The notes under the pieces were generated by a model. That model was not told the origin of the DNA and did not search any database. It worked only from the letters and a program-made list of their open reading frames with translations. From the NCBI GenBank assembly GCA_018435125.1, contig JAHDNZ010000012.1:1-40369 (forward strand): 40,369 nt of DNA. The letters run 5' to 3'. Source of the stretch: Bacillota bacterium (GTDB taxonomy: Bacteria > Bacillota > DTU065). The position numbers and the translations under genes were made by a program. Positions 3,674 to 34,827 of the stretch are shown here, piece after piece; within the stretch, counting starts at the first letter, position 1, and the number at the start of each line of letters is the position of its first letter.

Positions 3674-4465
3674 TTATGTTTCCATTACCTTCTTATGAGC
3701 CTCCTCGAGAATAGCTCTAATATTTTCTGCAAAAGGAGGTGCGTTTTTATGCAGATTAAACCTGCCGAAAAACTCTAAATTACCACTGCCACCAAGAATC
3801 GGTGAATAAGTTAAGCCCCAAGTATAAAGGCCTGCTTGTTGTGCCTGCCAAACCACCTTATGCAAAACTTCGCTGTGAATTTGACTATCTTTTATAATGC
3901 CGTGTTTATCCACTTTATTTTTTCCGGCCTCAAACTGAGGTTTAATTAAAGCTACAATCTCTGTCTCTGGTTTCATAAATAGCGGCAATCTAGGCAGAAA
4001 TTTATCTAGAGAAATAAAAGAAACATCAATGGTAATGATGTCAAATTGACCTGTTTTAAGTGGTGATAAAGCTCGAATATTAGTCTTCTCTAAGGATATA
4101 ACTCTTGGATCCATTTTAAGATCCTTAGCTAGTTGATCTGTACCTACATCAACAGCAACAACTTCTCGGGCACCTTTTTTTAACAAGCAGTCTGTAAAAC
4201 CACCGGTTGAAGCTCCAATATCTAGGGCTCGCCAATCTTTTACACTAAATCCAAAGGTATCTAGAGCATGCTCAAGTTTTAGTCCTCCACGACTAACATA
4301 CCTGTTAAGATCATTCTCCAGAGTTATCTCTTCTGTGCCTGTGACAAGAAAGCTGGCTTTCGCCAGCTTTCCATTGACTTTTACCCTGCCTTTATCAATT
4401 GCTTCTCTGGCCTTAGTCCGACTTTCATAATAGCCCTTACTTGTTAAATAGAGATCGAGTCTCAT
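3674..4465 (-). CDS. tlyA: TlyA-family S4-domain RNA methyltransferase
   Basis: Member of the TlyA/YqxC family: an N-terminal S4 RNA-binding domain joined to an FtsJ-like Rossmann methyltransferase. In some bacteria TlyA 2'-O-methylates 16S/23S rRNA; the older hemolysin label is probably misleading. The S4 part starts MRLDLYLTSKGYYESR. The SAM site is ALDIGASTGGFTDCLL, with further conserved blocks KGAREVVAVDVGTDQL, TIDVSFISLDKFLP and ALIKPQFEAGK. I chose the internal ATG at 4465, not an upstream in-frame ATG at 4492, because AGAGGTGG precedes it and because ATG overlaps the dxs stop as ATGA, a coupling junction. Length is 263 residues. Confidence 0.92.
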   Translation of the reverse strand: MRLDLYLTSKGYYESRTKAREAIDKGRVKVNGKLAKASFLVTGTEEITLENDLNRYVSRGGLKLEHALDTFGFSVKDWRALDIGASTGGFTDCLLKKGAREVVAVDVGTDQLAKDLKMDPRVISLEKTNIRALSPLKTGQFDIITIDVSFISLDKFLPRLPLFMKPETEIVALIKPQFEAGKNKVDKHGIIKDSQIHSEVLHKVVWQAQQAGLYTWGLTYSPILGGSGNLEFFGRFNLHKNAPPFAENIRAILEEAHKKVMET

Positions 4466-6354
4466 TCTGCCGCCACCTCTGGAACTATACATAAAAGACC
4501 CAGAAATTGTTTAATAGTAATTAAAAGAGTAGCGACATCTAGCCCAACTTCCTGATAAAGATTATCACAATTACCAGAACCGACAAAAGTATTGGGCAAA
4601 CCAAGGGTTTTAACTTTTTGCAGGATCTCTCCTTTGGCCAGTACCTCTAATACGGCACTGCCCAAACCACCTGAAATTGTATTGTTTTCCACGGTTACAA
4701 GCGGAGCACTTTGAGCCAGATTTATAATAAGTTTCTCATCAAGAGGCTTGATAGAACGAATATTTACTACTCCTGAATCGATACCTTCTTTGGCCAGCTC
4801 AGCTCGAAGTTCACTCGCACGTTCAACCATAATTCCTTCAGCTAAAATATTCACATGTTTTCCAATTGCTAAAACTTCTGCTTTCCCAGGTGTTATATAT
4901 TTTCTGGCACTATACTCTAGTCCTTTAACCGTCTTGGCTTTGGGGTAGCGTATGGCCACAGGCTGTTCAAGTCTAAACGCTGTGTAGAGCATATCGGCAA
5001 GTTCCGGGCCATCTTTGGGCGAGAATATTACCAGATTAGGAATGCTACGTAGATATGAGAGATCAAACATACCATGATGAGTTGGACCGTCCGGGCCGAC
5101 TAATCCAGCTCTATCTATGGCAAAGACGACCGGTAGATTTTCTAGCGCGACATCGTGAACGATTTGATCATAGGCTCTTTGTAAAAAAGTAGAATAAACT
5201 GCAACTACAGGTTTCATGCCTTTTGCAGCCAAACCTGCTGCAAATGTAACTGCATGCTGTTCTGCGATTGCTACATCAAAGAATCTCTCCGGAAACTTTG
5301 CGGCAAAAGCACTAAGTCCTGTTCCCTCAGCCATGGCGGCAGTTATAGCCACAATCTTGGAGTCTCTTTTGGCTTCTTCAAGAATGGCTTTAGCAAAACA
5401 ATCCGTAAAAGACAAACCTCTTTTTTGCTTTCTTTGCCCTGTTTGCAGATCAAAAGGACCCACACTATGAAAACTCTCCGGAGCTTTTTCTGCGGGTTTG
5501 TAACCTTTGCCTTTCTTAGTTACAACATGAACTAAAACCGGTCCTTTTATATTTTGGGCTTCAGTTAAAACACGACACATCTTCTGAATATTATGCCCGT
5601 CAATAGGACCTAAATAAGTAAATCCCAGTTCTTCAAAGAAGATACCCGGAACAAGCATATACTTAAAGGCGTCTTTCATGTTTTCTACGGTTTTAGCAAG
5701 CCTCATACCAACTAAAGGAATCTTGGAAAGAAGATACTGCAGATCGGTTTTAAACTTAAAATAACCCGGATCCGTTCTCAAACTGGAAAGATAAGTTGAT
5801 AGAGCTCCCACATTTGGGGCAATAGACATTTCATTATCGTTTAAGACTACAGTCAGATTGGCTTTGAGGTGTCCAGTATGATTTAGAGCTTCCAGTGCCA
5901 TGCCTCCGGTAATGGAGCCATCGCCGATTACCGCAACTATTTGTCGATCTTCATGATTGAGATCCCTGGCCTTGGCCATGCCTAAGGCTGCTGAGATACT
6001 TGTCGAGCTATGCCCGGTAGCAAAAGCATCATGAATAGACTCCTCGGGCTTAGGAAAACCGGATATACCGCCATACTGCCGTAAAGAGAAGAAACTATCC
6101 CTACGTCCTGTTAAAAGCTTATGGGTATAAGACTGGTGTCCGACATCCCAGATAATCTGATCGATGGGACTGTTGTAAACTCTATGCAGAGCTATAGTAA
6201 GTTCTACCACTCCTAGGTTAGGAGCCAAATGGCCCCCATTTTGGGCCACAGTATGAATTATTTCCTGACGAATCTCCGCGGCTAGTTGATCTAGTTGGTC
6301 ATAAGAATAAGTTTTTAAATCTCCAGGTGCTGTTAGTCTATCAAGTAGTCTCAT
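4462..6354 (-). CDS. dxs: 1-deoxy-D-xylulose-5-phosphate synthase
   Basis: First enzyme of the MEP isoprenoid pathway: condenses pyruvate and glyceraldehyde 3-phosphate with thiamine diphosphate. The 630 residues match the family length. Visible blocks are the N-terminal DVGHQSYTHKLLTGR, the TPP/Mg motif GDGSITGGMALEALNH ending in NDNEMSI, the central transketolase pyrimidine domain with AIAEQHAVTFAAGLA, and the C-terminal transketolase domain with GLGSAVLEVL. Its 3' end overlaps tlyA as ATGA. It follows oapA by 27 bases and shares the transcript with ispA and the OLE RNA interval, so isoprenoid genes flank the RNA. Confidence 0.97.
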   Translation of the reverse strand: MRLLDRLTAPGDLKTYSYDQLDQLAAEIRQEIIHTVAQNGGHLAPNLGVVELTIALHRVYNSPIDQIIWDVGHQSYTHKLLTGRRDSFFSLRQYGGISGFPKPEESIHDAFATGHSSTSISAALGMAKARDLNHEDRQIVAVIGDGSITGGMALEALNHTGHLKANLTVVLNDNEMSIAPNVGALSTYLSSLRTDPGYFKFKTDLQYLLSKIPLVGMRLAKTVENMKDAFKYMLVPGIFFEELGFTYLGPIDGHNIQKMCRVLTEAQNIKGPVLVHVVTKKGKGYKPAEKAPESFHSVGPFDLQTGQRKQKRGLSFTDCFAKAILEEAKRDSKIVAITAAMAEGTGLSAFAAKFPERFFDVAIAEQHAVTFAAGLAAKGMKPVVAVYSTFLQRAYDQIVHDVALENLPVVFAIDRAGLVGPDGPTHHGMFDLSYLRSIPNLVIFSPKDGPELADMLYTAFRLEQPVAIRYPKAKTVKGLEYSARKYITPGKAEVLAIGKHVNILAEGIMVERASELRAELAKEGIDSGVVNIRSIKPLDEKLIINLAQSAPLVTVENNTISGGLGSAVLEVLAKGEILQKVKTLGLPNTFVGSGNCDNLYQEVGLDVATLLITIKQFLGLLCIVPEVAAE

Positions 6355-6381: not shown

Positions 6382-6954
6382 TTATTCGGAACGTAGCTTT
6401 TTTTTAACGCTTTTTTTATTAGGAGTTAAACTCATGCCAGTTACATTTTCCAAATAGTAAAGGAGTCGGCCGGTTGAATAGATAATCTCTGTCGCTTTAT
6501 TAATCGCCAGAGATTTCTCCGCTCTTTTTAAACTTACCGTTAGAGCAGCAGTAATAGCTGCCAGAAATACTTTAAGCCATGTACTTGTACTGGATATATT
6601 AAAAGCTATTGTTGCTGCCGCTGCACCTGCAAGGGTGCCACTTATATCTCCAACTAAATCATTACAAAATGAAGCCACCCGGTCAGCATTTCTTACTAGC
6701 CAGATAGCTTGTTTAGCTCCGGGTATTTTATTCCCCGCCATCGCATGAAGAGGAGTTTCGCTGGCAGCTGCAACTGCTGTACCGACAAGATCAAATAAGA
6801 CACCCACACCGATTATAGCTATTAAAATTAAAAGAGACGGCCACAAACCAACCTTAGCAAGTGCTGAATTAGAACCAGCATTAAGAATAAAGCTTACTAC
6901 TAAAGTTAAAATAAAAGTTAATAAAACACTTCGCCAATGGTCTGACAACCACAT
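6382..6954 (-). CDS. oapA: OLE-associated membrane protein OapA
   Basis: About 190 residues, very hydrophobic. Likely membrane segments include LTFILTLVVSFILNAG, LWPSLLILIAIIGVGVLF, an Ala-rich stretch GTLAGAAAATIAFNI and VFLAAITAALTVSL, with a Lys-rich C-terminus (NKKSVKKKLRSE). Length, membrane character and position directly between a large non-coding RNA interval and dxs match OapA, the protein known to bind OLE RNA and hold it at the membrane. The ATG at 6954 is preferred over GTG at 6957 because GGAG lies four bases upstream. The assignment rests on synteny and general sequence character; an alignment was not run. Confidence 0.85.
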   Translation of the reverse strand: MWLSDHWRSVLLTFILTLVVSFILNAGSNSALAKVGLWPSLLILIAIIGVGVLFDLVGTAVAAASETPLHAMAGNKIPGAKQAIWLVRNADRVASFCNDLVGDISGTLAGAAAATIAFNISSTSTWLKVFLAAITAALTVSLKRAEKSLAINKATEIIYSTGRLLYYLENVTGMSLTPNKKSVKKKLRSE

Positions 6955-6999
6955 CACTCTCCAAAAAACTAACTGAAAAAAACCTGTTCAATATGTAAA

Positions 7000-7622
7000 A
7001 CCAGGGAGGTGACCGCCTTTTAAGTAAATTCTATGGCTTAAGGTCTAGTAGGCTTTCCCAGAAGTTCACTTGAGTGTCACCACTTAAGCGGTTCCCCTTT
7101 AAGAACTTCTCTGCTACGTCGCCGTTAGCAGGGCTAGATTACCACTGAGGCCATACTTTAATCCTTAGAAAGCGTCTTTTGGAACAGCCTAGGAGTTTTC
7201 CTCCACGCCGGAAATTCTATCTTCTAGCCTCTTTTGCAGAAAGGATTTCAAACAGCGGCGGGCAATTAACTGTGGTACCTTCAGTCAAAAGCTTGAACCT
7301 GTTCCCCCTCTATTTCCACTCAAGGCAGGCTACACTGCATGTAACAATCTGGCAATAAAGCTACTATATCACATTGCAGGTTAAATCCCAAGCCGTAGGT
7401 TAAACCTTGGTTTTTGCCCGCGCACTTGGGTCTCCACGAAGAAGGGTCAACGCCCACATGCCTTTGTGGATCGCCCCTCTTCTTAACCCCCAGCATCAGC
7501 CCAAAACTGGGCGTCTCAAGCCAACACCAGGGACTTCATCGATGTGCCCTTAAACGGATTTTTAGGCCCGTCTTCGAAGATAGCACCGGTGACTAGGATA
7601 CTGTGTCACCTCTGCCCTCAAT
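7000..7622 (-). ncRNA. ole: OLE RNA (ornate, large, extremophilic RNA)
   Basis: About 675 bases between a DUF212 gene and oapA hold no convincing ORF, yet are rich in stable stems. Read on the minus strand these include CTGCTA/TAGCAG (7111-7131), GAAGTTC/GAACTTC (7061-7109), a GAAGAGGG/CCCTTCTTC helix (7438-7482) capped by a CCACA/TGTGG stem, and GGTGAC/GTCACC (7588-7610). A GTCACC copy at the 3' end (7008-7013) could also pair with the 5' GGTGAC. OLE RNA is known to be about 600 nt, to occur in anaerobic or extremophilic Bacillota, and to lie between isoprenoid genes beside oapA, exactly this context. Known roles concern membrane association and tolerance to alcohol, cold and Mg stress. Ends are approximate. 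Confidence 0.85.
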
Positions 7623-7632
7623 TGAGAGTATA

Positions 7633-8079
7633 TCACCTACAAATAAGAAGTGCAACTAGTATGCCAATCAGCGCTCCGGCCATCACTTCAAAGGGACTAT
7701 GTCCTAAAAGTTCCCGTAGTCTTTCTTGTTTAAACTCGCCTTTATGAAAGAGCTCTTCAACCAGAATATTTAATATGGCCGCTTGTCGGCCAGCTGCTCT
7801 TCTTAGACCCGCAGCATCATACATAACAATCATTGATAATACAAACGAAATAGCAAAGTCGGTGCTTTCAAAGCCGTGCAAAAGTCCAACCGCAAAACTG
7901 AGACCACATACAAAGGCTGAATGCGAAGAAGGCATACCTCCCGTACCCAGAAAATACTTCCAGCTAAAGCCACCCCGTGGTCTAATGGCAGTAAAGCCCT
8001 TTAGAGTTTGAGCAATTGCCCAGGCGATAAGAGCTGAACGCAAAGCTAGGTTTTGCCAGATGGCCTCAAATATATTCAC
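7633..8079 (-). CDS. divergent PAP2 family (DUF212, YuiD-like) membrane protein
   Basis: A 148-residue integral membrane protein of the DUF212/YuiD family, distantly related to PAP2 phosphatases. Supporting blocks are AWAIAQTLKGFTAIRPRGGFSW-type text near the N-terminus, GTGGMPSSHSAFVCGL (the conserved G-MPSSHSA motif), MYDAAGLRRAAGRQA, and the C-terminal LLGHSPFEVMAGALIGI (GH-P-EV-AG). Four or so hydrophobic segments are visible. The start is GTG with GGAGG about 10 bases upstream. A lipid or polyprenyl phosphate substrate would fit the isoprenoid neighbours, but the family's reaction is not established, so that is inference. It directly precedes the OLE RNA interval. Confidence 0.88.
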   Translation of the reverse strand: MNIFEAIWQNLALRSALIAWAIAQTLKGFTAIRPRGGFSWKYFLGTGGMPSSHSAFVCGLSFAVGLLHGFESTDFAISFVLSMIVMYDAAGLRRAAGRQAAILNILVEELFHKGEFKQERLRELLGHSPFEVMAGALIGILVALLICR

Positions 8080-8109: not shown

Positions 8110-8976
8110 TTAGCTTTTACGACTTAATATATAGCTGGCCAAACCCAGAAGTATCTCTTCTCCAGGCAAACCAATAGCTGCTTTTTGTGCTCTGACACAA
8201 GCCTCTTTAGCAAGCTGCTTAGCTTTTTCAAGCCCATAAAGAGTGGTATAGGTGGATTTATTTAATATTACATCCTTACCAGGGGTTTTGCCTAAGGTGC
8301 TAGCCTTACCTTCTACATCGAGAATATCGTCAGTGATTTGGAAGGCTAAACCAATATTTTCACCATAAACTGTTAAACTCGCCAAAAATTTTTCTCTTTT
8401 GGCGGATAAAGCACCCATTTTTAAGGCAACTGTAATTAAAGCCCCTGTTTTTTTAGCATGTAAAGTTCCCAATTCGGCTGGAGTAAGCTTTTTATTCTCC
8501 GCCTCTAAATCCATTACCTGGCCTCCAACCATACCGGCTGCTCCAGCTGCTTTAGCTAACTCTAAACTTGCCATAAGCGAGTTATTTTTTAACTCCATAA
8601 CAGTTTCAAAAGCTTTCGTCAGTAAAGCATCCCCTGCTAAAAGGGCAATAGCTTCACCAAAAGCTATATGACATGAAGGTTTGCCTCTTCTGAAATCGTC
8701 ATTATCCATACAAGGGAGATCGTCGTGAATTAGAGAATAGGCATGTACCATCTCTACTGCACAAGCAGCAGGAATGGCTAATTCTTCTTCTCCGTAGGCA
8801 CCTAAAAAAGCAAGAGCTGCCCTAAACCTTTTACCTCCCCCTAAAAGTGCATACTGCATAGCTTGATAAAGTAGCGGAGGATTGCTTATAGCTAGATACC
8901 TTTTAAGATGAACTTCAATCTGAGTTACCACACTTTGTAAATATAAAAGAGCTAGATCCAAGTTATTATCGCTCAT
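8110..8976 (-). CDS. ispA: polyprenyl (geranyl/farnesyl diphosphate) synthase
   Basis: Trans-type prenyl transferase that adds isopentenyl diphosphate to DMAPP/GPP to make farnesyl diphosphate. The 288 residues fit the IspA class. The first Asp-rich motif is in HDDLPCMDNDDFRRGKPSCH, the second in ITDDILDVEG, with GGGKRFR upstream for diphosphate binding. A well placed GGAGG precedes the ATG. It follows xseB by 12 bases, the widespread xseA-xseB-ispA order, and shares its strand with dxs downstream, so both ends of the early isoprenoid route bracket the OLE locus. Confidence 0.95.
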   Translation of the reverse strand: MSDNNLDLALLYLQSVVTQIEVHLKRYLAISNPPLLYQAMQYALLGGGKRFRAALAFLGAYGEEELAIPAACAVEMVHAYSLIHDDLPCMDNDDFRRGKPSCHIAFGEAIALLAGDALLTKAFETVMELKNNSLMASLELAKAAGAAGMVGGQVMDLEAENKKLTPAELGTLHAKKTGALITVALKMGALSAKREKFLASLTVYGENIGLAFQITDDILDVEGKASTLGKTPGKDVILNKSTYTTLYGLEKAKQLAKEACVRAQKAAIGLPGEEILLGLASYILSRKS

Positions 8977-15808: not shown

Positions 15809-16351
15809 CTAAATACTGGTAAGAACGATTTGTTCCCTATTAAAGGTAGTCATATTAAACAATATCTCCCCGATCGCTTCTACTTTGTCTTTAGTTAAAC
15901 TTTTAGCAACAACCAGAACTTTGCTTTCTTCGATAGAAATAACTGTTTCACCATAACCTTTAGCTTTGAGTATGCTTTCTAATTCTTCTTCCTGATTAAT
16001 TTTTTTATTTTGTGATAGTAATTCTAAAGAAGCCTCTGAATTGCCATCATTAGCTAATTTTTCTAAATCCAGTTTAACATTTTCTCTGGCAATATCACGG
16101 CTTAATCTATACTCGAGTAAGGGATCATAAAAGTTTGCGGTTTCTTCAGCCTGGGGTTGTTCTTTAGGATCAAAATCAATATTAATATCCAGAAAGTCAT
16201 CTTCGTTGTAGTAATCATGGTTAAGATTACCTGCAACAGACATGTCACCGGTATTTAAGGCGAAAATCTCACGCCCACGAAAATTCCACCAGATCGTTAA
16301 ACCGGCACTAAGAATCACTAAAACTACTAACCAACCCATTAGCCTTTTCAC
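15809..16351 (-). CDS. spoIIIAH: stage III sporulation protein AH
   Basis: Mother-cell membrane protein whose extracellular domain binds forespore SpoIIQ (or its functional equivalent) and forms part of the feeding-tube channel. It has one N-terminal membrane segment (LMGWLVVLVILSAGLTIWW) and an EscJ/PrgK-like soluble domain toward the C-terminus (EELESILKAKGYGETVISIEESKVLVVA pattern). About 180 residues. Two GTG starts are possible (16360 and 16351); the second has TGAGGTG at a better distance. It is the last gene of the spoIIIA operon. Confidence 0.9.
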   Translation of the reverse strand: MKRLMGWLVVLVILSAGLTIWWNFRGREIFALNTGDMSVAGNLNHDYYNEDDFLDINIDFDPKEQPQAEETANFYDPLLEYRLSRDIARENVKLDLEKLANDGNSEASLELLSQNKKINQEEELESILKAKGYGETVISIEESKVLVVAKSLTKDKVEAIGEILFNMTTFNREQIVLTSI

Positions 16352-16361
16352 GCTCAGCACC

Positions 16362-16868
16362 TCATTCCTTTCCTAATATCACTATACGTCCCAGGGGTAG
16401 ATCCCATAAGGCACGCACTGCCTCTATTAGCATTAGTTTTTGGGCTGTGGATATTTTTTTGTTTAAGGTTATTACTACTCCACTTACTTTAGCTGCCTGC
16501 CTCTGGAGAATATAGCCTGTTTCACCATTGTCTTGACGCATTCTTACAATTTCTCTATCCTCTTTAATCGACTTTACTTGATTCTTATCATACTCAGTTT
16601 CAGTCTTTATATCGGTAGCTAAATATAGCTTGCCGTTATCTGAATAAGTTATCATCACTTTTACACTACCAAGACCTAAAGTGGATAAAATCTCTTTGAG
16701 TTTTTCTTCATCATCTTGGGGTGGACTTTCTGCTGTAGTTTTTTCTATTTTGGTATTTGGACTAGAATGTCCGGCAAAACTCCCCCAAATAAGTAGCACT
16801 AGGCCTAAAATTCCAAAAAACACCAAAGGCCAGGGAATTTTTTGCAAATACTCTTTATAGGTTTTCAT
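16362..16868 (-). CDS. spoIIIAG: stage III sporulation protein AG
   Basis: A 168-residue membrane-anchored ring protein of the SpoIIIA-SpoIIQ channel. One membrane segment (WPLVFFGILGLVLLIWG) is followed by a short disordered stretch and then a ring-building-motif-like domain (EEKLKEILSTLGLGSVKVMITYSDNG, SGVVITLNKKISTAQKLMLIEAVRALWDLPLGRIVILG pattern). It is shorter than the 200 or more residues common in the family, mainly in the middle. The ATG overlaps the spoIIIAF stop as ATGA. Confidence 0.9.
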   Translation of the reverse strand: MKTYKEYLQKIPWPLVFFGILGLVLLIWGSFAGHSSPNTKIEKTTAESPPQDDEEKLKEILSTLGLGSVKVMITYSDNGKLYLATDIKTETEYDKNQVKSIKEDREIVRMRQDNGETGYILQRQAAKVSGVVITLNKKISTAQKLMLIEAVRALWDLPLGRIVILGKE

Positions 16869-17077
16869 GGTAACAACCCCTCAAGACTGATTTCCAAAAG
16901 CAGATCAGAAAGCTTTAAAATTTGCCAGATCGGATTTAAAAGCATAATCAAAAAGATCAAACCAAATACTAGGCGTACTGTTTTACCTAGTCGTTCTTCC
17001 TTAATTAATAAAGAACTTATTTCTTCAAAAAAGCAAAGCCCTATTAGCTGTGCCAAAGTCTGCCAGATTATCTCCAC
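16865..17077 (-). CDS. spoIIIAF: stage III sporulation protein AF, short form
   Basis: Only 70 residues: two hydrophobic stretches (IIWQTLAQLIGLCFFEEISS and VRLVFGLIFLIMLLNPIWQIL) joined by ERLGKT, which match the N-terminal membrane part of SpoIIIAF. The family is usually near 200 residues with a soluble C-terminal domain, absent here. The short stop seems natural because it overlaps the spoIIIAG ATG as ATGA. GTG start with GAGGTG upstream. It is identified by position in the operon and N-terminal pattern. Confidence 0.78.
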   Translation of the reverse strand: MEIIWQTLAQLIGLCFFEEISSLLIKEERLGKTVRLVFGLIFLIMLLNPIWQILKLSDLLLEISLEGLLP

Positions 17078-17081
17078 ACTA

Positions 17082-18149
17082 TCACCTCAAAAGTAAGCTC
17101 CCTAGAGCCGCCAAAACACCTATACTGATATAAAACATAATGGCAGTCAGAACAATTAGACTTAAAAAAAGAGTAACACTTTTTTCCATGGTCTCTAAAG
17201 CACCTAAAAAACGCGTTTCCACCACAGGCTCTATTAAGGCCTGCAAGAGTTTATAAACTAAAACCAGAGCCGAGAGCCTTATTATCGGAAAAAGGGTTGT
17301 AAAAAGTAAAAACAAAAGACCTGCAGATGTTGTTAAAGACTGAACAGCTTTAGTCGATGCTTGTAAAAGATCGGTGGAGCTTGCTACCTGCCCGCCAATT
17401 AAAGGGACAGTCCCAACTATAAACTTAGCGGTTCTGTAGGTGAGTGAATCCTGAGCTGCACTACCTATGCCAAGAGAGGTTATCAGGCCAAAAAAGACGG
17501 TATTGATTAGGCCGAGTAAAAAAAGACTAAACCAGCGGAAAAATCCTGAAAGGCGAGTCAGTCTCGGTTTTTTTGTTACATAGCTAGCCAAGCCCAATAC
17601 TCCGGAGGCAAGTGCGAGAGGTAAGATTATCTTTTCAAGCAGCACACTGACTGTGGCACTTAAGCCGATTATCAAAGGAGATATAGTAATAGTAGTTATT
17701 AGCTCTCCTCCCGCAGCCACAGTAGCTGCCACCAGAGGTACCAGAATCTTTACGATATTGCTCAAAAGGGTAATTGTGGCCTGGGTAAGCCTTACAGTCT
17801 CTTTTAAACTGGAGACCAAAAGCAGGACCAACACCAAGTAAGCAGCCAGAAAACCTGCTTCGCCCGCTTCTTTACTAAAAGATGCTGCTATCTCTTTAAA
17901 AATCGCTGCTAAAACTGCTATGATAATTATTTGCCCCATTAGTTTGGTATGTAGATAGACCTCCTGCCACAAGTAGCGCCAAATCTGTTGCACAACTTTT
18001 TGGGGAGTTGGATTTTGCATAATCTTTTTTATATTTAAGGGTTCAAGGGTATCGGGAATCAACTCCTCTAGTTCAGATGGAAGATCGAGTTCTGTTAGCG
18101 GTGCTCCTAAGGCTGAAACCGACAGAAAAAATACCAAGATCCAGATCAT
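17082..18149 (-). CDS. spoIIIAE: stage III sporulation protein AE
   Basis: A 355-residue multi-pass membrane protein of the SpoIIIA complex. An N-terminal signal-like segment (MIWILVFFLSVSALGAP) is followed by an acidic linker (PSELEELIPDTLEPLNIKKI) and about seven membrane spans, with family text VTKKPRLTRLSGFFRW and the polar GSAAQDSLTYRTAKFIVGT-type loop. The ATG overlaps the spoIIIAD stop as ATGA. Size and order agree with the family. Confidence 0.94.
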   Translation of the reverse strand: MIWILVFFLSVSALGAPLTELDLPSELEELIPDTLEPLNIKKIMQNPTPQKVVQQIWRYLWQEVYLHTKLMGQIIIIAVLAAIFKEIAASFSKEAGEAGFLAAYLVLVLLLVSSLKETVRLTQATITLLSNIVKILVPLVAATVAAGGELITTITISPLIIGLSATVSVLLEKIILPLALASGVLGLASYVTKKPRLTRLSGFFRWFSLFLLGLINTVFFGLITSLGIGSAAQDSLTYRTAKFIVGTVPLIGGQVASSTDLLQASTKAVQSLTTSAGLLFLLFTTLFPIIRLSALVLVYKLLQALIEPVVETRFLGALETMEKSVTLFLSLIVLTAIMFYISIGVLAALGSLLLR

Positions 18150-18535
18150 TTGGGCAGTACCTCCAACAATCCGGTAAGAACTGCTTTTAAGACTGGCAGA
18201 GACAGTACAGCTATTACAACTTTTCCTGCCAGCTCAATTTTAGCTGCTAAGGCACCTTCGCCACTATCTCTGGCAATATCGGCAGCTAAACCAGATAGAA
18301 AAGCTGTGCCTAGTACCTTACCCATCAATTCAAGATATGCGAATTTTATACCTGATATGTGGCCAAACTCTCTTAAGGAGTTCCACAAAATTACCAGCGG
18401 CTCAAATATTAACATCAGGATTAGTAAAAGACCGGCCAGCAATACCGGAAGAGAGGCCTCTTTTAATCTTTCATTGAGAATTAAGGTGGCTACCAGAGTG
18501 ATAAGACCAACCCCAACCACCTGCCAAACAACCAT
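18146..18535 (-). CDS. spoIIIAD: stage III sporulation protein AD
   Basis: A 129-residue membrane protein with about four spans (VGVGLITLVATLILNE, LPVLLAGLLLILMLIF, then two more), including the conserved RDSGEGALAAKIELAGKVVI block. The ATG has AGGAGG upstream. It lies between spoIIIAC and spoIIIAE, with ATGA coupling to the latter. Its known role is in the forespore-mother cell channel. Confidence 0.93.
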   Translation of the reverse strand: MVVWQVVGVGLITLVATLILNERLKEASLPVLLAGLLLILMLIFEPLVILWNSLREFGHISGIKFAYLELMGKVLGTAFLSGLAADIARDSGEGALAAKIELAGKVVIAVLSLPVLKAVLTGLLEVLPK

Positions 18536-18547
18536 GCTTCTTCCCTC

Positions 18548-18742
18548 CTAAAGATTAAAAAGAGAACGAACTTTACTAAACAGCTGAGCTACAAGCTCTA
18601 AAACCAAAACCAAACCGATAACCACTCCAGCAAGAGTTACTAATTGCGCCATCTCTTCCTTGCCGGCCTGTTTTAAAACCGAATGTGCCACAGCAGTTAA
18701 AAGCCCTAAACCTGCTAGTTGCAAGAGAAGTTCAACCTGCAC
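18548..18742 (-). CDS. spoIIIAC: stage III sporulation protein AC
   Basis: A 64-residue protein with two membrane spans (LLLQLAGLGLLTAVAHSVL and QLVTLAGVVIGLVLVLELVAQLF in pattern) joined by KQAGKEEMA, the family signature loop. GTG start with TAGGAGG upstream. Standard position between spoIIIAB and spoIIIAD. Confidence 0.93.
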   Translation of the reverse strand: MQVELLLQLAGLGLLTAVAHSVLKQAGKEEMAQLVTLAGVVIGLVLVLELVAQLFSKVRSLFNL

Positions 18743-18754
18743 GTAAATTACCTC

Positions 18755-19237
18755 CTAGCACGTAAGAAGTACTATTAGTAATGCGGTAAGCGGTGATAGC
18801 CAGCGCCACAGCGGAGTTACTTTCTGTAATCTTTCTCGGTATTTTAACCTGCTTGCTTCAAGGCGTGATAAAGCTTTGAGAATCAAGGCGGTTTGATCTT
18901 TTTCCGAACCTCTTCCGAGTCTGATACCTACTTCAAAAAGCAGCCTCTGCTCTTCTTCCTTAAAAGGCAAAAAATCAACATCAAACAAACAAGCTTCTCC
19001 ATTTTGGGCTCTTGTAGCAGCTTCGCTAAAAAAAGGCTTGGTCTTTTTTACTGCTTTGGCTGCCTGATTAAACGCCACCGGAAGTGGTTTGAGAGCAAAA
19101 GATATCTCATTTTCAATAATGGCCAAGCCTAACTGTAATTCTTCGATGAGATTAATATAATTTTCTTCACGTCTTATGCCCCACAGGCCAAAGATCAGAC
19201 CGGTAAAAAGAATCAGCAGCTGGCCTAGTATTTTCAT
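18755..19237 (-). CDS. spoIIIAB: stage III sporulation protein AB
   Basis: A 160-residue protein with an N-terminal membrane segment (LGQLLILFTGLIFGLWGIRR), a soluble helical part with YINLIEELQLGLAIIENEISF and LSRLEASRLKYRERLQKV, and a C-terminal membrane segment (LSPLTALLIVLLTC). This is the SpoIIIAB layout, related to type II secretion GspF folds. Its ATG lies 71 bases inside spoIIIAA, with GGAGGTTTG upstream of it. Confidence 0.92.
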   Translation of the reverse strand: MKILGQLLILFTGLIFGLWGIRREENYINLIEELQLGLAIIENEISFALKPLPVAFNQAAKAVKKTKPFFSEAATRAQNGEACLFDVDFLPFKEEEQRLLFEVGIRLGRGSEKDQTALILKALSRLEASRLKYRERLQKVTPLWRWLSPLTALLIVLLTC

Positions 19238-20069
19238 TTTTCAAACCTCCCACAAAAAACGGTTTTTCTCCTGGTGTGCCTCTAAGACAGACTCCTAACT
19301 CGAAAAAACTCCGAGGAATCTCTGTCCCATGCCAGGTTGCTAAAACCTTAACACCCATCTGACTCGCTTTTTGCATCACGCATAGATCCGCAGCAAAACC
19401 AATCTCATCAGTAGCAATTAGATCCGGGCGCATGCCTCTTAAAAGTATTTCAAAGCCTTCTTTTTTAGAGCAGCCTGTTAATATATCTACCGTAAAACCG
19501 ATATCAAAGGTAGGTTGGCCCTTAATAGAGGCTGCTATCTCACCCCTTTCATCAATAACACCGATGGTATAATATTTGCCTGCCAAATACCGGATTAAAT
19601 CCCTTAAGATGGTGGTTTTCCCTGAACCCGGTGGTCCCACAATTAAGGTGTTTTTTAAGCCGGTGTTATAAAACGGATATAAAAAAACTGCTGCGTTTGG
19701 TATATCCTTGGCTAAGCGAATGTTTAATGAACTAATATTTTTTTGCATTTTAACACCGTTTTCATCGCGACTAAGCTCGCCGGTAATTCCTACTCTGTTT
19801 CCTCCGGGCAGCATTAAATATCCCTGTCGCAGCTCCTGTTTATAAGCATATAAAGAAGCCTCTGTAATTTTGTCTACCGTTTCTGAAATATCTCTTGGAG
19901 TTACTATATAGGCCTCTTTAATAGCACAGATCCTCCCATCTAAAACTCCACACTCTTTAGCCAAAAAACGAATGGTAAGAGGCCTTCCCAAACGAAGCCT
20001 TATCTCGGTGGCTTCTTGCCACAGGTTTTGAATTTGTTTTTTTACACTCTCAGCCAAGTAGTGCTCCAT
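19167..20069 (-). CDS. spoIIIAA: stage III sporulation protein AA (ATPase)
   Basis: Type II/IV secretion-like ATPase thought to power the SpoIIIA channel. About 300 residues. Walker A is LIVGPPGSGKTTILRDLIRY, followed by YYTIGVIDERGEIAAS and LRGMRPDLIATDEIGF (Walker B region). The ATG at 20069 (MEHYLAESVKKQ) has GGAGGAAAAGAT just upstream, so an earlier in-frame ATG at 20144 is rejected. The C-terminus runs 71 bases into spoIIIAB and ends with an unusual tail (ENTRPAADSFYRSDLWPVG), longer than I would expect. Confidence 0.94.
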   Translation of the reverse strand: MEHYLAESVKKQIQNLWQEATEIRLRLGRPLTIRFLAKECGVLDGRICAIKEAYIVTPRDISETVDKITEASLYAYKQELRQGYLMLPGGNRVGITGELSRDENGVKMQKNISSLNIRLAKDIPNAAVFLYPFYNTGLKNTLIVGPPGSGKTTILRDLIRYLAGKYYTIGVIDERGEIAASIKGQPTFDIGFTVDILTGCSKKEGFEILLRGMRPDLIATDEIGFAADLCVMQKASQMGVKVLATWHGTEIPRSFFELGVCLRGTPGEKPFFVGGLKNENTRPAADSFYRSDLWPVGHKT

Positions 20070-20155
20070 ATCTTTTCCTCCGCTTTGCAAGGACAATCTT
20101 ATGCTAATACATATTAATCTCTCTCCTTGTTTATGCCAGCTCAAAACAGGGATTT

Positions 20156-32835: not shown

Positions 32836-34827
32836 GTGAGCGTAAATCGCCTTAATATTTTAGGTTGCCAAGCCAACCATCCCCTCAATTATCTAAAAGC
32901 TATAGGCCTTCTAAAGATTATCTCCTTACAATTAGAGCCTTCGGTAAAAGGCTTTTATGACCATGACTCATTTATCCTTGAAACTAATTTATCTAAAGAG
33001 CAAATAGCTAACTTTTTTGTTCATAAATATATCCCTTCTCCCATCTTGTCACCCTTTTTAAGACTGAGAAACAATGTTCTCTTGGAAAATTTAACTCGAG
33101 CTGAAAATCCACGTCTCTCGTTATTTAGACAAGCCTACGAATATTTAAAAATGGCTCCTCCCAAAAAAAGGCAGTCTTTCCCCTCCGAAGAATGGTTACA
33201 GGATATTGCTAGCGAATTAAAATACCTTCATCCCAGTTCTGTTGGTTCTTATATAACTCTTACCCTTGCAGCCTATAGGCTTTGTGATCCCTTGAAAGAA
33301 TCATCACCCTCACCTTTTTTAATTAACTATCAAGATCAGTTCAAAGAATTTTATCTTGAGGAAAACTATCTTGGCGCACTCTCACAGTTAATAAGTTTTA
33401 AAACTGACACCCCCAAAAAAGAGTCCCTGGATTATTTGTTAGCTGCAATTTTTACCGAAAATAACTCTAAAGAGAGTTTTTTTAAGCTTGGTGATTTTTG
33501 CTCTTCATTTTTAGACAGAGCAAATTACCCTAACCGGCAAAATATTAAAGCTAACCCTTGGGATTATATACTGGCCTTAAACGGCTTTGTTGCAATCTGT
33601 TCACCTTATACTTTGAATGCAGAGGTTAGAGTTCCTTTTTGCCTTAGGGCAACTAGTTACGGCTGGGAAAACATTGATGCTAATCCTTTGCGCAAACTCG
33701 CTAAGCGCGAGATGTGGCTACCCCTTTGGAATCGGCCGCTTACCAATAACGAACTGGAAAAACTGCTGTTAAAACTGTTCGAAACCTTGGTACAATCTAG
33801 AATTAATTCAGCTTTAGATCTGGTAGCTGAGGCTACCATTTGGGGAACCAATCCTCTGCTTGCAAACTTCCTACGCCTTGGTCTTATTTTTGATATTAAC
33901 GCAACTCCCCTACCGGAGATAATTAATCTAAATAAGGTAGCCCTATCCAAAATACCGGAGGCTGAGTTGCTTTCTTCCACCAAAGCCTGGCTGGCTAAGT
34001 GGGATTTTATGCTTTTTAGCGGACCGAAAAGTCAAAAGCAAAAAGAAACTATTAAAGCTACCGAAGAAGCTCTTTTTTCCTATCTAACAAATCAAGACAG
34101 TTCTTTGACCAAGACCCTAATAAAACTAGGCCAGGCTGAAATAGGCTCTTCTTTGCTGCCTAAAGATGCCAGACCTGATCCACTAACTCTGCCTACCTTT
34201 TACCTGAAAAATGCCAAAGAAAACAGTCCTGAATATAGACTGGCTCTGGCTGTGGCATCTTTAGACAGTCACCTGCCGGTTAGATCACAGCTAGAACCGG
34301 TTTCATCTATTAGTGGCAAATGGTTTTGGAATGATTCTGTTTTGGCCCAAGGAGGAAATCTAACTGAAAAGTTAGCTTATCTCTTGGAAATGAGAGTAAA
34401 GTTTGCTACAGAAAAAAGGCTTCCCTTTGTACCGATAAATGCCGCTCATCCTGCTCAAATCAAGGATGTTGAACTTTACTTAGAAGGTAAAATCGATGAG
34501 AATTATCTTGGATCTCTCCTATATGGATTAATCCTCATAAACTACCCCTATCCCAAAGTTCAGCCTCTTGAAAACACTCCGGATAGCAATCTGCTTTGGC
34601 ACTATCGGCTTGTTAGAGAAGCCTTTTTATCAAAAGCTAATCATATCTCGCATTATCAGAATCTCCAGCAATTAATAATACGTCTACGCTTTGCTTCCTT
34701 AAACGAAGTGCTCCTTTTAGCTAAAAACCTGACTGGAAGCTCAGATTACCCCCTAGCACCAATTTTGCAGCCATCTGTAAATTTTAACAGGCGCTTATTA
34801 GCAGCTGCACTCTTCCATGCTATATAA
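32836..34827 (+). CDS. csx17: orphan Csx17/Cas8u2-like protein (type I-G CRISPR effector subunit)
   Basis: A 663-residue protein. Its start (LNILGCQANHPLNYLKAIGL, then GFYDHDSFILETNLSKEQI and YIPSPILSPF) follows the Csx17 pattern: a hydrophobic strand, GC-x5-LxxYLKAxGLL, a W/F-rich segment, and a P-TPI-xPW-like block. Csx17 is the large subunit (Cas8u2) of type I-G (formerly I-U) effector complexes. No cas7 (csb1), cas5-cas6 (csb2), cas3, cas1/2 or repeat array occurs in the window. GTG start with GGTGGTG upstream. No nuclease motif is seen. Single-gene context suggests either a remnant or a use outside CRISPR. The family call is from pattern memory, not a search. Confidence 0.72.
   Translation: MSVNRLNILGCQANHPLNYLKAIGLLKIISLQLEPSVKGFYDHDSFILETNLSKEQIANFFVHKYIPSPILSPFLRLRNNVLLENLTRAENPRLSLFRQAYEYLKMAPPKKRQSFPSEEWLQDIASELKYLHPSSVGSYITLTLAAYRLCDPLKESSPSPFLINYQDQFKEFYLEENYLGALSQLISFKTDTPKKESLDYLLAAIFTENNSKESFFKLGDFCSSFLDRANYPNRQNIKANPWDYILALNGFVAICSPYTLNAEVRVPFCLRATSYGWENIDANPLRKLAKREMWLPLWNRPLTNNELEKLLLKLFETLVQSRINSALDLVAEATIWGTNPLLANFLRLGLIFDINATPLPEIINLNKVALSKIPEAELLSSTKAWLAKWDFMLFSGPKSQKQKETIKATEEALFSYLTNQDSSLTKTLIKLGQAEIGSSLLPKDARPDPLTLPTFYLKNAKENSPEYRLALAVASLDSHLPVRSQLEPVSSISGKWFWNDSVLAQGGNLTEKLAYLLEMRVKFATEKRLPFVPINAAHPAQIKDVELYLEGKIDENYLGSLLYGLILINYPYPKVQPLENTPDSNLLWHYRLVREAFLSKANHISHYQNLQQLIIRLRFASLNEVLLLAKNLTGSSDYPLAPILQPSVNFNRRLLAAALFHAI

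Follow-up and report, generated by a model that had tools for sequence, protein, structure and literature searches.

A full-length OLE RNA gene with a GGUACC L9.3 loop in an uncultivated Bacillota family

The locus described here lies on contig JAHDNZ010000012.1 of the Bacillota bacterium assembly GCA_018435125.1, of which positions 1 to 40,369 were analysed; this whole 40,369-nt stretch is referred to below as the window. On its minus strand the gene order xseA-xseB-ispA-DUF212-[gap]-oapA-dxs-tlyA-nadK-argR-recN was found, the last gene names being a reading of Pfam hits. The gap, bounded by the stop of DUF212 at 7633 and the start of oapA at 6957, is the non-coding interval of about 650 bases recognized in the original prediction, which had placed it, with OapA, between ispA/DUF212 and dxs; Pfam searches confirmed all of the named neighbours. 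These flanks, ispA-DUF212 on one side and oapA-dxs on the other, are the classical context of OLE RNA. The features of the locus are as follows:

8110..8976, minus strand: ispA (polyprenyl synthetase, polyprenyl_synt; PF00348, 183.6 bits)
7633..8079, minus strand: DUF212 gene (divergent PAP2), upstream neighbour (PF02681, 157.8 bits)
6993..7625, minus strand: OLE RNA (ole), full length, 633 nt (RF01071, 487.1 bits; covariation over 43 sequences)
6382..6957, minus strand: oapA, 191 aa (start GTG at 6957, ATG at 6954 also possible; alignment A1; CNNM 22.6 bits, below the cut-off)
4462..6354, minus strand: dxs (DXP synthase), downstream neighbour (PF13292, 409.4 bits)

Two further loci were observed in the window. 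A spoIIIA sporulation operon, in which spoIIIAB and spoIIIAE were confirmed, occupies 15809-20144 of the minus strand, which also carries ole, and is situated some 8 kb upstream of it; a correlation of OLE with sporulation genes has been reported. On the plus strand, a type I-G CRISPR gene, Cas8g1/Csx17 (32836-34827; TIGR04113, 2e-58), looks like an orphan: no CRISPR array was found within 32.5-36 kb, and no cas neighbour was evident among the listed frames.

OLE RNA is a large non-coding bacterial RNA, located at the cell membrane, that promotes survival under stress. To our knowledge, it ranks with the largest of the conserved bacterial RNAs for which no biochemical function is known. Assignment of the interval to this family, previously proposed from gene order and size, was borne out by the Rfam covariance model RF01071, which matched the minus strand at 7625..6993 with 487.1 bits (E 4.5e-140), 437 bits above the gathering score of 50 bits. 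The match spans model positions 1-616 of 616 and is not truncated, giving an RNA of 633 nt; the interval itself was correctly located, and the limits first given for it, 6975-7632, differ from the Rfam ends by 18 and 7 bases. OLE was the sole Rfam match across the whole window, and a search of the whole 2.55-Mb assembly found a single copy. The RNA has the full-length form (~600 nt) with P7-P9 present, and it belongs to neither variant 1 nor variant 2. The 764-nt OLE of genome G003, considered as a possible insertion, owes its extra length to Ns that fill an assembly gap.

The interval had also been described as stem-rich and free of any credible ORF, and both statements hold. For the 633-nt RNA the folding energy is -217.4 kcal/mol, compared with a mean of -196.0 for shuffled sequences (z -2.8), and none of 20 shuffles reached so low an energy. 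No coding frame is open through OLE: stops occur in all six frames in the window and in the three closest relatives, and the longest open stretch in the interval of the window is 71 codons. Neither of the outcomes named beforehand as refuting the prediction, a lack of a significant OLE covariance-model hit or a coding frame conserved in relatives, was therefore observed. At the OLE locus no promoter distinct from those in shuffled sequences and no intrinsic terminator were found, which is compatible with processing from a polycistron and is no proof of transcription.

Pairing was examined in an alignment (A2) of 43 OLE sequences, most of them the sole representative of a bacterial family, with the Rfam consensus mapped onto the window sequence and a terminal helix, P1, added:

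7605..7612, minus strand: P1 5' strand (GAGGUGAC), pairs with 7006-7013
7006..7013, minus strand: P1 3' strand (GUCACCUC), pairs with 7605-7612

Over the 43 sequences, standard pairs occupied 86.3% of the cells, compared with 39-46% when the partner was slid by 1-3 columns, and two-sided changes were present in 125 of 166 pairs, with a score of 0.443 versus 0.094-0.141 for the slid control, which is not fully neutral because the structure was taken from the model and one sequence. P1 was paired in 95.9% of its cells and showed two-sided changes in seven of its eight pairs, including a G-C to A-U change in the family of the window OLE. In this alignment P1 is among the best supported OLE helices. 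Its strands are left unpaired in the RF01071 consensus, and given this strong covariation the Rfam model could be improved. The end helix has presumably already been drawn elsewhere, since the published numbering starts the resolved domain at P3. A local hairpin formed by GGUGAC (7610-7605) and a GUCACC just downstream was considered as a possible competitor of P1 and set aside: it occurs mainly in this family and is likely to be of chance origin.

Three regions were compared with sites of protein binding:

7438..7482, minus strand: P6 arm, the bS21 region (alignment columns 142-200)
7118..7123, minus strand: GGCGAC loop, putative OapB-site element in the P12.2/P13 region (A2 alignment)
7076..7081, minus strand: GGUGAC loop, putative OapB-site element in the P12.2/P13 region (A2 alignment)

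In the window OLE the P6 internal loop GGGCGAUC/GCGUUGACCC is intact, and in its family both strands of the lower P6 stem are shorter by one nucleotide. A CCUCC anti-Shine-Dalgarno mimic in P6, reported for bS21 binding in Halalkalibacterium halodurans, is absent from the window OLE and from most of the 43 sequences, and the published mutants M1-M3 indicate that the exact letters of the mimic are unnecessary for binding (PMC12054373). With so few sequences carrying it, the mimic is not general and is no defining feature of the OLE class. Both GGNGAC loops are conserved in alignment A2, and we infer that they belong to P12.2/P13.

The membrane protein encoded beside OLE had been named OapA, and this identification is supported by its alignment with 37 homologues from genomes that also contain OLE and by a sub-threshold similarity to CNNM, as published for OapA (PMC11332333). 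The protein is intact (191 aa), with the residues F55, D56, D100, G103, D104, G111, K144 and K148 invariant among the 38 OapA proteins of alignment A1; in a scan of named genomes, its nearest relatives were from uncultured Bacillota MAGs (47% identity). OapB is a 112-aa KOW-like protein encoded between map and infA; it was located by this position and then confirmed against the solved structure of OLE-associated protein B, 7K9B (4.3e-11). A Pfam KOW search was unsuitable as an OapB finder, as each genome yielded just one or two KOW genes and OapB was not among them; the KOW hit of genome G000 sits in a ribosomal protein operon. OapC is an 83-aa YbxF homologue encoded between rpoC and rpsL (YbxF match 1e-13), and bS21 is also encoded in the genome. 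OLE is thus conserved in sequence and structure, adjacent to oapA, and accompanied by homologues of all four published protein partners.

In a set of 61 related genomes, 47 carried OLE together with OapA and the other 14 had neither, which is full concordance (61/61; Fisher p 4e-14), with one of the 47, G017, carrying both in decayed form. No CNNM hit above the cut-off and no full-length CNNM/MpfA-type Mg exporter was found in the genome under study, compared with 12 of 14 control genomes that have one. Full-length MpfA-type proteins were found in 14 of 47 OLE-positive versus 10 of 14 OLE-negative genomes (p 0.01). These distributions of partners and MpfA repeat published patterns (PMC11332333). 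At the G017 locus (L047, G017:C15:391342-392328) OLE reaches only 170 bits, oapA is broken by stops and a full-length MpfA-type protein is present; the decaying pair beside this protein may represent a replacement in progress. In three genomes, G007, G015 and G055 (loci L046, L045 and L044), OLE and OapA are unlinked, lying on different contigs or far apart, and these genomes carry the lowest-scoring intact OLE RNAs.

The window OLE also departs from the common form in loop L9.3:

7266..7288, minus strand: P9.3 hairpin UUGACUG-AAGGUACCA-CAGUUAA (minimum-free-energy fold)
7274..7279, minus strand: L9.3 self-complementary loop GGUACC, candidate contact of bridge B3, the kissing loop (position corresponds to the GGCC loop in other OLE RNAs; palindrome test)

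In the cryo-EM homodimer of Clostridium acetobutylicum OLE, a symmetric L9.3 kissing loop forms bridge B3, and the states GGCC, GAUC and AGCU of the L9.3 tetranucleotide are given in the published covariation; GUAC is not among the states named in the main text (PMC12286853). In the window OLE the loop is AAGGUACCA, in which a self-complementary GGUACC replaces the usual GGCC. Within the same family, G003 also has GGUACC, and G001 and G004 have GGAUCC, so that both central bases differ between these genomes (UA versus AU). GGCC is the common state in Bacillota (98 of 138 segments when scored by an automated rule that is imperfect). Among the matches listed, GGCGCC was found in four families (f5, f66, f67 and f75), and a 6-nt palindrome was lacking in f13 (UUCGCCGAA), G006, G169 and f98. 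The loop is UGCGCGCA in f43, and UGCA occurs in L064 and G109.

A palindrome test was performed with one loop per lineage, a 6-nt threshold and shuffling of each loop. Among the matches listed, 9 of 13 non-GGCC lineages held a palindrome of at least 6 nt, compared with 2.1 expected by shuffling (p ~3e-5). It should be noted that the lineages were picked by eye among these matches, that the test was designed after the loops had been seen and that a single change may underlie GGCGCC in all four of its families. It replaced an earlier automated count with a floating centre (21 of 33 non-GGCC loops versus 14.6 expected), which was too permissive and mis-centred many GGCC loops. The palindrome series agrees with and extends the published covariation, lending modest additional support to the kissing-loop bridge. 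The expectation that a new representative would add covariation data was realized at the P1 end helix and at L9.3. Separately, in L032, L033, L039, L042 and L044, P9.3 is reduced to a few base pairs and the L9.3 kissing loop is consequently missing; these OLE RNAs would be either monomeric or joined by other bridges only.

Since the interval immediately precedes oapA, shares its strand and is separated from it by neither a promoter nor a terminator, it might also be a riboswitch-like, cis-acting leader of the oapA mRNA rather than a free-standing RNA. This is very unlikely, as the full OLE model is matched and the class is known elsewhere as an abundant processed RNA, and the separation of OLE from OapA in G007, G015 and G055 would be impossible for a leader. 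That ole could instead be a decaying relic is brought to mind by G017, in which such decay does occur, but the window OLE is full length at 487 bits beside an intact oapA, and three family members retain the pair and show compensatory changes in P1 and L9.3, so that we give this explanation almost no credence. The fragmentation of the assembly into 91 contigs and the missing CCUCC mimic of P6 were counted among the points against reading the locus as a functional OLE gene. Taken on its sequence, the locus very probably represents an intact, functional, full-length OLE RNA gene.

A further question concerns the GGUACC of this true OLE, which might be a chance palindrome without any role in dimer formation. 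Loops without a palindrome, as in f13, G006 and G169, and other lineages devoid of P9.3 speak for this and were counted against the kissing-loop reading; they imply that the bridge is dispensable somewhere. Nevertheless, non-GGCC loops hold palindromes of at least 6 nt at about four times the shuffled rate among the matches listed, and one family switches the centre between UA and AU by changing both bases, which makes a chance origin rather unlikely.

Compared with RF01071, the window OLE shares the full-length match, gene context, partner proteins and helices P1 to P14, and differs in having GGUACC instead of GGCC in L9.3, a P6 that is shorter by one nucleotide per strand and lacks CCUCC, and a G-C to A-U change in P1. 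With its full length, classical context and partner set, it is therefore an ordinary full-length OLE, here from an uncultivated Bacillota family. It resembles the H. halodurans OLE RNP (PMC9723947, PMC12054373, PMC11332333) in that oapA, oapB, oapC and rpsU (bS21) are encoded and MpfA is absent in both, and it differs in lacking the CCUCCU anti-Shine-Dalgarno mimic of P6. With the C. acetobutylicum homodimer, the window OLE shares the domain 1 architecture, a symmetric palindrome in L9.3 and an unchanged conserved CUAAAAAU loop, taken as the A-A bridge (L4) loop; the report has GGCC, GAUC and AGCU in L9.3, in contrast to GUAC in the window and GCGC and UGCA elsewhere (PMC12286853).

By analogy with these systems, we infer how the window OLE would be transcribed, processed, dimerised, placed at the membrane and employed under stress. 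As judged from H. halodurans and C. acetobutylicum, ole would be part of the transcript of the xseAB-ispA-DUF212-ole-oapA-dxs cluster, from which the RNA would be released by trimming. The RNA would fold into a P3-P9 and a P10-P14 domain, closed by P1, and two copies would join partly via the L9.3 kissing loop, GGUACC with GGUACC. OapA would anchor the dimer at the membrane, with OapB binding P13, OapC the k-turn near P5, and bS21 P6. The existence in cells of the dimer seen by cryo-EM is argued mainly from structure, and a dimer-at-membrane mechanism is somewhat favoured for this organism. The particle would aid tolerance of cold, alcohol, Mg2+ and poor carbon sources, and could plausibly substitute for the missing MpfA-type Mg exporter. 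The most likely picture would be a dimeric ribonucleoprotein that OapA holds at the membrane and that supports Mg2+ and stress tolerance.

The locus is otherwise one of several thousand known OLE genes. We tentatively suggest, from the loop sequences, that the dimer contact in this uncultivated family may have been rewritten to two palindromes, GUAC and GAUC, in which case the loop would set which OLE molecules dimerise: with GUAC and GAUC in sister genera, each OLE could self-pair but not cross-pair. If this is true, the sister-genus loops would give a direct test of dimer specificity, and the natural L9.3 series (GGCC, GGAUCC, GGUACC, GGCGCC and UGCA) constitutes a ready-made set of variants for testing loop pairing and its specificity.
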